Position numbers and translations under genes: made by a program
The notes under the pieces: generated by a model
Database searches by the model: none
Seen by the model: the letters and a program-made list of their open reading frames with translations, nothing else
What the model was told of the DNA's origin: nothing
Assembly: GCA_015067305.1 (NCBI GenBank)
Contig: SVMT01000008.1
Span: 1-64,000 of the forward strand
Direction of reading: 5' to 3'
DNA from: Oscillospiraceae bacterium
GTDB taxonomy: Bacteria > Bacillota > Clostridia > Oscillospirales > UBA644
DNA: 64,000 nt
Shown: positions 21,955 through 26,157 of the stretch, piece after piece
How positions within the stretch are numbered: position 1 is the stretch's first letter
How the letters are laid out: every line of letters starts with the position of its first letter

Positions 21955-22788
21955 TTATTTACTTATTCTTTGTACGAGATAAGGAATCGTTTCTTCAAAG
22001 TTTACGCCATACCAGCGACTGTCTTTGTCTTCGCATGTTGCTCTGATGCACTCAACTGTGTAGTCAACGGCGATCTGCAAAGAGTCTTCAAATGAATATC
22101 CTTTTACAAGTGCGCCTGTCAGAGTGCTTGCGAAAACATCTCCCGTTCCGTGGTAACTTGCGTTTATCCTGTCTCTGAAATAGGTGTAGTAAGAGTCTTT
22201 TTGAGGGTCGTAGCACATAACGCCGATCTTTCCCTCAACGTAATTTATGCCCGTAAGAACTGCCTTTTTTGCGCCTTTTGCACAGAGTTTTTTCAAAATG
22301 TCTTTAGCGTATTCTTCGTCGTAGGTTTCTTTGTATTCGATTCCGAGCATGAATGCCGCTTCCGTCATATTGGGTACGATAATATCTGCTTTTCCGCAGA
22401 GTTCAGCCATTTTATCGGCAAATTTCTGAGTAAATCCCGGGTAAAGCTTTCCGAAGTCTCCCATTACGGGGTCAACGATTATCATGTTTTCATCGGTGTT
22501 GAAGTCATCGAAAAACTTTGAAACCAATTCAAGCTGTTCAAATGAGCCTAAATAACCTGTATAAATTGCGTCAAATCCAAGATGTTCCTTCTTCCAATGC
22601 TCTGCAATGGGGCTGATGTCGGAGGTGAGGTCTCTGAATGTGAAGCCCTTGAATGCCGTATGGGTGGAAAGTACAGCTGTTGGGATAACTGCAGCCTCTA
22701 CACCCATGGCGCTGATTATGGGCAAAGCCACAGTCAAAGAGCATTTTCCGATACAGGATATGTCTTGTATTGTAACTATTCTTTTCAT
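21955..22788 (-). CDS. Pyridoxal/pyridoxamine kinase (PdxY/ThiD-like)
   Basis: A 277-residue ribokinase-superfamily kinase: TIQDISCIGKCSLTVALPII at the N terminus, YTGYLGS (about 95), VDPVMGDFGKLY (about 125), PNMTEAAFML (about 150) and the GTGDVFASTLTGAL anion-hole motif with catalytic Asp (about 227). It phosphorylates pyridoxal, pyridoxine or pyridoxamine to PLP-pathway vitamers. It lies 34 nt downstream of the TrpB-like gene on the same strand with no terminator between, so it probably shares the tryptophan-responsive leader. A PLP-making enzyme next to a PLP-using one is a sensible pair. Confidence 0.85.
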   Translation of the reverse strand: MKRIVTIQDISCIGKCSLTVALPIISAMGVEAAVIPTAVLSTHTAFKGFTFRDLTSDISPIAEHWKKEHLGFDAIYTGYLGSFEQLELVSKFFDDFNTDENMIIVDPVMGDFGKLYPGFTQKFADKMAELCGKADIIVPNMTEAAFMLGIEYKETYDEEYAKDILKKLCAKGAKKAVLTGINYVEGKIGVMCYDPQKDSYYTYFRDRINASYHGTGDVFASTLTGALVKGYSFEDSLQIAVDYTVECIRATCEDKDSRWYGVNFEETIPYLVQRISK

Positions 22789-22822: not shown

Positions 22823-24190
22823 TTATTGGATCTTTGGGAGAGAGTCGTAGCCCTTTTTGAGGTCGTCATCTGTGGGAATATAGTCTCCCATGTTTTTGTT
22901 GAGGAAGTTTGTGTATGCGGTCATGTCGAAGTAACCTGTACCCGTGAGCCCGAAGAGGATAGTCTTCGTTTCGCCTGTTTCTTTGCATTTGAGAGCTTCG
23001 TCGATTGCGGCTCTGATAGCGTGAGAGCTTTCGGGGGCGGGGAGTGTACCTTCGCAACGTGCGAACTGGACTGCGGCGTCAAAGATGTCTGTCTGAACAT
23101 AAGATTTCGCTGTCATATAACCGTCATGGTAGAGTTTGGAAAGTGTTGTGTTCATACCGTGGTATCTGAGACCACCTGCATGGTTGGATGCGGGAATGAA
23201 GCCGTGACCGAGAGTGTACATCTTCATGAGAGGTGTTGTTCTGCCTGTGTCTCCGTAGTCGAATTCATAGAAACCTCTTGTGAGGCTGGGACAGCTTGCA
23301 GGTTCAACGGCGATAAATTCAATATCATTCTTGCCTCTGATCTTGTCTGCCATATAGGGGGAGATGAGACCTCCGAGGTTTGAACCGCCACCTGCGCAAC
23401 CGATCACGATATCGGGCTGCACACCGTATTTGTCAAGAGCTGTTTTTGCTTCAAGACCAATGATTGACTGATGCATAAGAACATGGTTGAGAACGCTACC
23501 AAGAACGTATTTGCAGTTAGGTGTTTTGAGGGCTGTTTCAATAGCTTCGGAGATCGCACAACCGAGAGAACCGCTTGTTCCGGGGAACTGTTCGAGGATC
23601 TTTCTGCCAACTTCTGTTGTGTCTGAGGGTGAATGGATAACATCTGCTCCGTATGTCTGCATAACGGCTTTTCTGTGGGGCTTGAGTTCTGCGGAACCTT
23701 TAACCATATAAACGGTAAGATCAAGTCCGTAGTATGCGCAAGCCATTGAAAGGGCTGTACCCCACTGACCTGCACCTGTTTCTGTTGTAACGCTTGTAAG
23801 ACCCTGTTTTTTAGCGTAGTAGATCTGCGCTGCGGCACTGTTCAGCTTATGTGAGCCTGAAGTGTTGTTTCCTTCGAATTTGTAGTAGATATGTGCGGGG
23901 GTGTCAAGAAGTTTTTCGAGATTATAAGCTCTTACGATGGGAGCAGGTCTGTACATCTTATAGAAAGATCTGATCTCTTCGGGGATCTCGATATATTCGT
24001 CTGTGACATTGAGTTCCTGGTCAACGAGTTCTTCGCAGAAAACGTTGCAAAGTTCATCTCTTGTGCTGGGTTTGAATGTTTCGGGATTAAGGAAGGGTTC
24101 GGGCTTATCTTTCATAACGGCTCTTACGTTGTGCCATGCGTGAGGTATCTCATTTTCACTTAAATAAATTTTGTAGGGGATCTCTGCCAT
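22823..24190 (-). CDS. TrpB2-type tryptophan synthase beta chain
   Basis: A 455-residue PLP enzyme of the fold II family, longer than TrpB1 (about 400) and typical of TrpB2. The PLP lysine lies in SGSHKLNSA (about 122), the catalytic Glu in TTETGAGQWGTALS (about 145), and the phosphate loop in IGCAGGGSNLGGL (about 250). TrpB2 condenses indole with serine to tryptophan, usually without a TrpA partner; no trpA or other trp gene is in the window. A leader peptide with two adjacent Trp codons and an attenuator hairpin precede it, supporting a tryptophan-related role. AAAGGATG lies upstream of the ATG. Confidence 0.9.
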   Translation of the reverse strand: MAEIPYKIYLSENEIPHAWHNVRAVMKDKPEPFLNPETFKPSTRDELCNVFCEELVDQELNVTDEYIEIPEEIRSFYKMYRPAPIVRAYNLEKLLDTPAHIYYKFEGNNTSGSHKLNSAAAQIYYAKKQGLTSVTTETGAGQWGTALSMACAYYGLDLTVYMVKGSAELKPHRKAVMQTYGADVIHSPSDTTEVGRKILEQFPGTSGSLGCAISEAIETALKTPNCKYVLGSVLNHVLMHQSIIGLEAKTALDKYGVQPDIVIGCAGGGSNLGGLISPYMADKIRGKNDIEFIAVEPASCPSLTRGFYEFDYGDTGRTTPLMKMYTLGHGFIPASNHAGGLRYHGMNTTLSKLYHDGYMTAKSYVQTDIFDAAVQFARCEGTLPAPESSHAIRAAIDEALKCKETGETKTILFGLTGTGYFDMTAYTNFLNKNMGDYIPTDDDLKKGYDSLPKIQ

Positions 24191-24227: not shown

Positions 24228-24262
24228 AAAAAACGCTTACGGTTCATCTCTGTCCGTAAGCG
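24228..24262 (-). terminator. Attenuator terminator of the trpB2 leader
   Basis: On the minus strand CGCTTACGG, an 11-nt loop, CCGTAAGCG and TTTTTT form a classic intrinsic terminator, 38 nt before the trpB2 start codon and downstream of the leader peptide. Confidence 0.85.
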
Positions 24263-24311
24263 AAATTTGCTTTTAAAATGACCTCATTTTATTCGGAGCA
24301 TCAAGATTAAA

Positions 24312-24338
24312 CCTTATAAACTTTCAATGTTCATAAGG
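24312..24338 (-). promoter_or_regulatory. Pause-type hairpin of the attenuator
   Basis: On the minus strand CCTTATGAAC pairs with GTTTATAAGG over ten positions (one G-U). It starts just after the two Trp codons and includes the leader stop codon. A ribosome stalled on the Trp codons would cover or open it, as expected of the 1:2 hairpin in transcription attenuation. Confidence 0.65.
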
Positions 24339-24376
24339 CGCCACCATCTGAAATTAACAGAAGCGGACAATTTCAT
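24314..24376 (-). CDS. Tryptophan leader peptide (20 residues)
   Basis: A 20-codon frame from ATG (24376-24374) to TAA (24316-24314) with GGAGAG nine nt upstream. It encodes a peptide with FRWWRL at positions 9-14, that is, two adjacent Trp codons among only 20. It sits between a consensus promoter and a Rho-independent terminator. This is the arrangement of transcription attenuation: when charged Trp-tRNA is scarce the ribosome stalls at the Trp pair and allows read-through into trpB2 and the kinase gene. The mechanism is inferred from the layout. Confidence 0.8.
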   Translation of the reverse strand: MKLSASVNFRWWRLMNIESL

Positions 24377-24426
24377 GATATAAGCTCTCCTGTCGAAATA
24401 GTTTCTGACTTTAAAATGATATTGTG

Positions 24427-24455
24427 ATTATAGCATAGGCTTAAATTTTTGTCAA
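24427..24455 (-). promoter_or_regulatory. Promoter of the trpB2 leader transcript
   Basis: On the minus strand TTGACA (24455-24450), 17 bp, TATAAT (24432-24427). Transcription would start about 45 nt before the leader peptide. Confidence 0.8.
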
Positions 24456-24517: not shown

Positions 24518-24546
24518 TTGACTTTTCTATGGTTTTCTGATATAAT
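24518..24546 (+). promoter_or_regulatory. Promoter of cimA
   Basis: TTGACT (24518-24523), 17 bp, TATAAT (24541-24546). About 40 bp upstream is the palindrome-like TTTTTTGTAACAAAA, which resembles the TTACAAAA element of the lipoprotein promoters. Confidence 0.65.
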
Positions 24547-24582: not shown

Positions 24583-26157
24583 ATGGAAAAAATATATACT
24601 TTGGATACGACTCTCCGTGACGGGCTTCAGGCTCAGACGGTCTCGTTTTCGCTGAAAGATAAATTGAATATAATCGGACTGCTTGATAAGCTTGGTGTTG
24701 ATTTTATCGAGGTGGGAAATCCCGCTTTCGGGAAAGCTGATGAGGAGTTCTTTAAGAAATTGGAATCTGTGAAGACTGTTAATTCCAAACTCATAACATT
24801 TACTCCGACTTGTAGAGTGGGTGAGGCAGCCACAGACTCTGTGGCTCTCAATGCTTTGGCTGGGACTAATATAAAATACTGTACGGTATTCGGTAAGACA
24901 TGGAAACTTCATGTCGATGAAGTTCTTAAAACTACTGAAGAAGAAAATCTCCGCATGATAAAGGACAGTATTGAATATCTGAGAAGTAAGGGCAAAACTG
25001 TATTTTTCGACGGAGAACATTTCTTTGACGGGTACAAGCATAACCATGATTATGCCATAGAGGTCCTTCGTACTGCCGCTTCCGCAGGGGCTGATACTCT
25101 TATTTTATGTGATACTAACGGCGGATGTTTCCCCGATGATATTAAAAAAGCTGTTCGTGAAGTTACAAAGCTTTTTGGCGTAAAGGTCGGTGTCCATGTT
25201 CATAACGACTGTGATATGGCTGTTGCGAATTCCGTTACGGCGGCTCTTTGCGGCTGTGTCCATGTTCAGGGTACTCTGAACGGTATCGGAGAACGGTGCG
25301 GAAACGCAAATCTGTCTACCATAATCGCAAATCTTCAGCTTAAAAAGAATTTTAAGGTCCTTCCTGACGGACATATCAGCCGTTTGACTGAAATTTCCCG
25401 TGCTGTTGCTCAGATCACAAATCTTTCCACAACCTCAATGCCTTATATCAGCCGTAACGCTTTTGCACATAAAGCGGGAATGCATGTTGACGGTGTTATG
25501 AAAAATCCCGCAACCTTTGAACATATTGACCCTTCTCTTGTTGGAAACAAACGTAATTTTATCCTTTCCGAGATCAGCGGAAAAAGCGCACTTGTGAATT
25601 CCGTTAAAAAAGTTATTCCCGATATGGAAAAAGATGACCCCAGAATGGATGGACTTTTAAAAGTTCTCAAACAAAAAGAGTCTGACGGTTATCATTTTGA
25701 AGCAGCTCAGGAATCCCTTGAGTTGGTGATCAAAAGACAGCTTGGGCTTTGTAAACCGTTTTTTGAGGTTGAAAAACTCAAACTTATTGACGAACAGATC
25801 ACCGAAACCAGCGCAAATACAAGTTATGCCTTCATCAAAGTTTCTGTCAACGGTGTTGAAGAGATCGCCGCCGCTGAAAGTGACGGTCCTGTTCATGCTC
25901 TTGACCAGGCACTCAGAAAGTCTCTGTATAATATTTATCCATCCTTGCAGAATGTCAGCCTTACGGACTATAAAGTTCGTGTTCTTGACGGAAGATCTTC
26001 TACCGGATCAAAAGTCCGAGTTCTTATTGAAAGCTCCGACGGGGTCGATGTATGGAATACTGTTGGTGTTTCTGTTGACATTATTGAAGCATCCAAAATG
26101 GCAATAGTTGATTCTATAGAATATAAATTGATGAAAGATATGAATAAAAATCACTAA
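24583..26157 (+). CDS. cimA: (R)-citramalate synthase CimA
   Basis: About 524 residues. The N-terminal HMGL/isopropylmalate synthase-like barrel has TLDTTLRDGLQAQTVSFS (about 5-22), FDGEHFFDGYKHN (about 148-160) and the metal ligands in GVHVHNDCDMAVANS (about 204). The C-terminal LeuA-type regulatory domain spans about 390-520. These and the length match citramalate synthase, which joins pyruvate and acetyl-CoA as the first step of threonine-independent isoleucine synthesis. The start is the ATG with AAAGGAAATT upstream. It is divergent from the tryptophan attenuator unit. The C-terminal domain suggests isoleucine feedback. Confidence 0.9.
   Translation: MEKIYTLDTTLRDGLQAQTVSFSLKDKLNIIGLLDKLGVDFIEVGNPAFGKADEEFFKKLESVKTVNSKLITFTPTCRVGEAATDSVALNALAGTNIKYCTVFGKTWKLHVDEVLKTTEEENLRMIKDSIEYLRSKGKTVFFDGEHFFDGYKHNHDYAIEVLRTAASAGADTLILCDTNGGCFPDDIKKAVREVTKLFGVKVGVHVHNDCDMAVANSVTAALCGCVHVQGTLNGIGERCGNANLSTIIANLQLKKNFKVLPDGHISRLTEISRAVAQITNLSTTSMPYISRNAFAHKAGMHVDGVMKNPATFEHIDPSLVGNKRNFILSEISGKSALVNSVKKVIPDMEKDDPRMDGLLKVLKQKESDGYHFEAAQESLELVIKRQLGLCKPFFEVEKLKLIDEQITETSANTSYAFIKVSVNGVEEIAAAESDGPVHALDQALRKSLYNIYPSLQNVSLTDYKVRVLDGRSSTGSKVRVLIESSDGVDVWNTVGVSVDIIEASKMAIVDSIEYKLMKDMNKNH

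Follow-up and report, generated by a model that had tools for sequence, protein, structure and literature searches.

Organization of the trpB2 leader

The DNA analysed here, called the window, is a stretch of 64,000 nucleotides (positions 1 to 64,000 of contig SVMT01000008.1, assembly GCA_015067305.1) from an Oscillospiraceae bacterium of the class Clostridia. Its minus strand carries trpB2, which is preceded by a structured leader and followed by a pyridoxamine/pyridoxal kinase gene that is likely part of the same operon (Table 1). The trpB2 product matched the families NF009057 (655 bits, cut-off 366) and TIGR01415 (575.9 bits, cut-off 518.85). A sequence-only reading had described a promoter, a Shine-Dalgarno (SD) sequence, a 20-codon peptide with adjacent Trp codons, a hairpin containing the stop codon, a terminator and trpB2, and we recovered all of them at the positions given, on the minus strand.

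Table 1. Features of the trpB2 leader and the genes behind it
Feature	Coordinates	Strand	Details
Sigma-70 promoter	24427..24455	minus	-35 TTGACA 24455-24450, 17-nt spacer, -10 TATAAT 24432-24427
SD of leader ORF, AGGAGAG	24385..24391	minus	read from sequence; AGGAGA retained in G007
Leader-peptide ORF, 20 codons, MKLSASVNFRWWRLMNIESL*	24314..24376	minus	UGG UGG 24346-24341; UAA 24316-24314
Protector hairpin B, GCCUUAUGAAC / GUUUAUAAGGU	24311..24339	minus	11 pairs; UAA stop within 3' arm
Antiterminator 5' strand (GUUUAU, GGUUUA, UCUU, UG, UCCG)	24294..24321	minus	overlaps 3' arm of hairpin B; from folding
Small hairpin AAAAUGA/UCAUUUU in antiterminator domain	24275..24290	minus	from folding and species comparison
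Antiterminator 3' strand, CGGACAGAGAUGAACC..GUAAGC	24235..24256	minus	end of terminator 5' arm, loop, 3' arm; from folding
Intrinsic terminator CGCUUACGG / CCGUAAGCG, then UUUUUU	24228..24262	minus	9-bp stem 24262-24254 / 24242-24234; U6 24233-24228
trpB2 (TrpB-like PLP enzyme)	22823..24190	minus	own SD AAAGG 24205-24201
Pyridoxamine/pyridoxal kinase gene	21955..22788	minus	34 bp after trpB2; NF005491 310.6 bits (cut-off 231)

The promoter agreed with the consensus at 12 of 12 positions and ranked top of nine promoter-like sites in the scanned region, with a predicted transcription start at about 24420; it was also found in G007, a sister species. Between this promoter and trpB2 lie a leader ORF that has its own ribosome binding site and adjacent Trp codons and, behind it, an intrinsic terminator. 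Hairpin B begins one base past the second Trp codon. The leader folded better than dinucleotide shuffles (z -2.5; 4/200). When the same genome was searched for further sites coding for Arg-Trp-Trp-Arg, 10 were found, against 11 for a control pattern, and the leader-like layout was seen only at the trpB2 leader. Divergent from the leader, a citramalate synthase gene (24583-26157, plus strand) follows a near-consensus promoter (24518-24546, plus strand, 11/12), with SpoIIP next.

Conservation and distribution of the leader

Among the genomes of the genus, G007 is the one other that has the same locus (completeness 84.7% for the window genome and 57% for G007). Measured from the start codon to the end of the U tract (149 nt), the leaders of the two genomes were 94% identical, with nine substitutions and one inserted base. 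Identity was 64% at the third codon positions of trpB2, where 162 of 453 differ, and 71% in the spacer ahead of the leader, so the leader is more strongly constrained than the sequence around it. Promoter, peptide and stems were retained, and the differences, which lie mostly in loops and linkers, include two amino-acid changes (the G007 peptide is MKQSASVNFRWWRLMNVESL*), one silent change, and changes in a hairpin loop, in linker bases and in the terminator loop. The sole change in hairpin B falls in its loop, the small hairpin differs at two loop bases with the same stem, and the terminator stem is identical. The Trp codons and the hairpins are thus conserved in the one existing orthologous leader, and the stems are so nearly identical across these only two homologues that no covariation signal is readable.

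A covariance model of the leader, run on 394 genomes of the order, returned only the two known copies and three weak matches. On inspection, these three were not Trp leaders, the best being a terminator after a trpB1 gene. Because no further copy was found in the 394 genomes, the leader is young or fast-evolving.

Folding of the leader in three ribosome states

Folding was computed for the part of the RNA that remains accessible when a ribosome occupies the Trp codons, when it stands at the stop codon and when it is absent. In the stalled state, modelled with the A site on the second Trp codon and a footprint of +14, the antiterminator had a probability of 0.81 in the window and 0.85 in G007. 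The terminator prevailed, with a probability of 0.97-0.98, both for a ribosome at the stop codon and for naked RNA. The antiterminator, which was missing from the sequence-only reading and emerged when competing states were folded, consists of GUUUAU and GGUUUAAUCUUgAUGCUCCG, located at the stop codon and behind it, paired with CGGACAGAGAUGAACC..GUAAGC, which covers the inner part of the terminator 5' arm, the loop and the 3' arm. Antiterminator and terminator are mutually exclusive, and in the computation the former was favoured only when the ribosome occupied the Trp codons. The stalled-state margin of the antiterminator over the terminator was 1.7 kcal/mol in the window and 1.9 kcal/mol in G007, which is within the error of the energy model, and because this gap is small, switching in the stalled state is a prediction, not a measurement. 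Under the assumption of a short footprint, +12 counted from the first Trp codon, the balance tipped slightly towards the terminator (P 0.60).

As a control, we kept both hairpin stems and shuffled the linker and the terminator loop, taking as thresholds the native stalled value together with termination in the other two states. None of 900 shuffles in the window and none of 900 in G007 reproduced the three-state behaviour. The likeness to the layout of E. coli trp attenuation that had been proposed for this site extends to its logic, which the three-state folding gave in both species.

Several SD-led short ORFs with two Trp codons also occur in the upstream regions of other trpB2 genes, so such an ORF alone is weak evidence. 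It is the combination that carries weight, namely the identity with the sister species over the 149 nt and a three-state fold unmatched by shuffles.

T-boxes of related trpB2 genes

We then compared 101 related trpB2 loci, 21 from whole-genome searches and 80 from a genome scan. At least 71 of the 101 had a T-box motif within 650 nt upstream, and 68 of the T-box-bearing loci showed AAUGGR at the expected UGG specifier position, which bears out, as regards T-boxes, the general remark in the sequence-only reading that Firmicutes more often use T-boxes or TRAP for Trp genes. These UGG-type T-boxes independently support trpB2 as a Trp-controlled gene. In G003, a genome of the same genus, the T-box heads the trpB2 operon, one gene further upstream, and reads AAUGGG at the specifier position. 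The closest same-genus trpB2 relatives (L003 in G003 and L004 in G008) both lie behind another gene in an operon with a Trp-type T-box at its head; G003 additionally has TrpA, indole-glycerol-phosphate synthase and further TrpB copies.

The T-box model RF00230 gave no match at the window trpB2 leader, although the same model finds the T-boxes of the relatives, and no known Rfam leader was found at this site. In the TrpB2 tree, T-box-bearing rows were scattered, and the two rows of the window type formed one fully supported pair in a small mixed group. The simplest history would be that a Trp T-box was replaced by a leader peptide within one genus. A Trp T-box before trpB2 and the window leader share the gene and would share the signal (tRNA-Trp charging) and the outcome; the T-box differs in binding tRNA directly, without translation. 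The window genome keeps at least one T-box elsewhere. On contig C55 of this genome, G000 (106042-106287, L130), a T-box whose specifier looks like UUC (Phe) precedes a phenylacetate-CoA-ligase-like gene, behind which lies an ACT-domain-like ORF.

Other arrangements were observed upstream of a few trpB2 genes. At L016, from a different family of the order (G022), two mini-ORFs lie about 330 and 140 nt upstream, encoding MRNVSAKYWRYFNFTFYGFAAGV* and MRIILYWRWRVRAVNKA*. The MRNVSAKYWRYFNFTFYGFAAGV* mini-ORF, behind which a terminator lies, is present in G046 too and in an altered form in G081. Folding suggests read-through with ribosomes on some of the Tyr/Phe codons, and this region is possibly an aromatic leader-peptide attenuator. 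At L033, the region about 200 nt upstream has no T-box and contains NAG triplets with a 5-nt period (ATGAG TTCAG ATCAG ATTAG ACAAG ACCAG), followed by a terminator, a run that is reminiscent of a TRAP binding site. L035 has a similar stretch and also a mini-ORF, MNSAYFTRWRSR*.

TrpB2, the kinase and tryptophan supply

Family searches detected neither TrpA nor indole-glycerol-phosphate synthase in the window genome, which is of gut type. Of the five genomes of the genus with a completeness of 90% or more, four likewise gave neither in these searches. Both were found in 14 of 14 control genomes. A second TrpB was not found in the window genome. The sequence-only reading had argued that this TrpB2 really makes tryptophan. 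The TrpB-like family matches, together with the Trp-type T-boxes on related trpB2 genes, point to trpB2 as a supplier of tryptophan, so that this part stands; because TrpA and indole-glycerol-phosphate synthase are not detectable, the enzyme probably does so by salvage, making tryptophan from scavenged external indole. The kinase gene adjoins trpB2 only in the window genome and G007 among the 101 loci, and its product likely supplies PLP.

Relation to the RF04312 trpB motif

RF04312, the 'trpB motif' of lactic-acid bacteria, was presented as a strong riboswitch candidate with more than 900 representatives, and its discoverers left a classic attenuator possible (Narunsky et al. 2024, PMC11109978). 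We considered the window leader as a member of this family and rejected it, since the RF04312 model, aligned full length to 24337-24223 and along both window hairpins, scored 21.0 bits against a gathering score of 59 (E 0.84). In both elements, a hairpin (P1 in RF04312) carries the antiterminator in its right shoulder and is followed by a terminator and Trp genes, and a Trp-codon upstream ORF (uORF) comes directly before it. RF04312 differs in its peptide end, WQ[S/N]WRR*, in a stop codon that usually lies 9-30 nt before P1, and in extra alternating helices between the uORF and P1.

To characterize the motif itself, we sampled 102 members from the order to which genome G636 belongs. In 96 of them, an SD-led ATG uORF that contains at least one Trp codon ends shortly before the motif, compared with 2/102 in the reverse complement of the same stretch and 2/102 in genic stretches. 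Ninety of these uORFs contained Trp-Gln and 68 had at least two Trp codons, and the peptides usually ended in WQ[S/N]WRR*, or in RWQSR with one Trp. The uORF falls immediately beyond the boundary of the Rfam model; in examples such as L164, L167, L192 and L204, it lies about 90 nt upstream of the motif. The genes that follow encode mostly TrpX-like transporter proteins and sometimes trpB.

Equilibrium folding of complete members showed no switching, as the terminators always won. In transcripts cut at the terminator 5' arm, on which switching was then computed, the pairing probability of this arm was 0.68 with the first Trp codon in the A site, 0.36 at the stop codon and 0.35 without a ribosome. 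On stalling it rose by more than 0.2 in 75 of 100 members and fell in one. In a swap test, the proposed alternative helices paired better with their own partners than with swapped ones in 74, 67 and 73 of 100 cases, and P1, the positive control, did so in 97; these figures count members as if unrelated and rest on crudely cut segments. RF04312 is thus most likely a Trp leader-peptide attenuator. We found no prior report of RF04312 in this role in the openly accessible literature.

Discussion

The trpB2 leader is, very probably, a ribosome-mediated leader-peptide transcription attenuator that would sense charged tRNA-Trp and control trpB2 and the PLP kinase gene. When tryptophan is plentiful, the ribosome would pass the UGG UGG codons, reach UAA and cover the antiterminator strand, so that the terminator forms and transcription stops. 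When Trp-tRNA is scarce, it would stall at the Trp codons and mask the 5' arm of hairpin B. The 3' arm of this hairpin and the bases after the stop codon would then be free to pair with the arms and loop of the terminator, so that RNA polymerase would enter trpB2. Without translation, the protector hairpin would form and the terminator would be made. We infer stalling, read-through, the response to tryptophan and co-transcription of the kinase gene from this model.

A terminator switch sensing a small molecule or a protein (a riboswitch, a divergent RF04312 or a TRAP-like site), with the short ORF incidental, is quite improbable. The full-length alignment of RF04312 and the riboswitch proposed by the authors of that family (PMC11109978) speak for it, but the alignment scored far below threshold, the SD and the two Trp codons are conserved along with the ORF, the fold changes with ribosome position, RF04312 members themselves have Trp uORFs, and by eye no NAG-triplet run was seen in the window leader. 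Still less credible is a TnaC-like arrest peptide that senses free tryptophan rather than uncharged tRNA-Trp: a Trp-induced stall would switch a Trp-making gene on at high tryptophan, the opposite of what biosynthesis requires, the orthologues have T-boxes, which sense tRNA, and tandem Trp codons directly before a hairpin fit codon stalling, even though the leader peptide is short and contains Trp, and free-tryptophan sensing exists, as TnaC shows (PMC8429421). The equally slim case for an unregulated arrangement, in which the promoter is ordinary, the short ORF due to chance and the terminator constitutive, and to which SD-led ORFs with two Trp codons arising by chance in upstream regions and the chance numbers of terminator-like and promoter-like sites in the scan would lend some weight, founders on the selective conservation of the leader relative to its surroundings, the perfect promoter and the failure of any shuffle to reproduce the three-state fold.

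In E. coli trp attenuation (trpL of trpEDCBA), a leader ORF with tandem Trp codons is followed by a protector hairpin, an antiterminator and a terminator that exclude one another. The attenuator proposed for trpB2 shares with it the tandem Trp codons, the protector hairpin, the exclusive antiterminator and terminator, and the same predicted outcome in the stalled, stop and naked states. Unlike in trpL, the protector hairpin has the stop codon within its 3' arm and directly adjoins the Trp codons, the antiterminator contains a small hairpin, and the target is a lone trpB2 with a kinase gene. The proteobacterial Rfam Trp_leader model gave no match at the window leader even at E up to 10. Trp attenuators have been described for trp operons of Corynebacterium and Streptomyces, including trpB2A of C. 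diphtheriae (PMC1262725). They resemble the window element as Gram-positive leader peptides, there with double or triple UGG codons, and in their intrinsic terminators, whereas they belong to Actinobacteria, have GC-rich terminators and control whole trp operons. In bacilli, hisS*/hisZ genes carry His leader peptides in place of T-boxes (Naville and Gautheret 2010, PMC2965389). These are likewise Firmicute leader peptides where relatives have a T-box, but they concern histidine, aminoacyl-tRNA synthetase paralogues and Bacilli.

Taken alone, the trpB2 leader represents a known mechanism in an unexpected lineage: Trp leader-peptide attenuation, with all its parts, in a member of the Clostridia, which as a rule use T-boxes. 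What makes it valuable is the exchange of sensors within one genus, where it appears to have replaced a T-box while reading the same signal, together with the reinterpretation of RF04312, for which a search for a ligand would probably be misdirected, given the conserved Trp-codon uORF in nearly all sampled members. On balance we consider it likely that Trp leader-peptide attenuation, overlooked behind T-boxes, is widespread and has evolved repeatedly in Bacillota, that RF04312 is such an attenuator and not a riboswitch, and that the window element is an independent, lineage-specific invention replacing a Trp T-box before an orphan, indole-salvaging trpB2. That the same orphan enzyme is under two unrelated sensors of tRNA-Trp is a strong argument that TrpB2 in the absence of TrpA provides tryptophan, probably from indole of the community.
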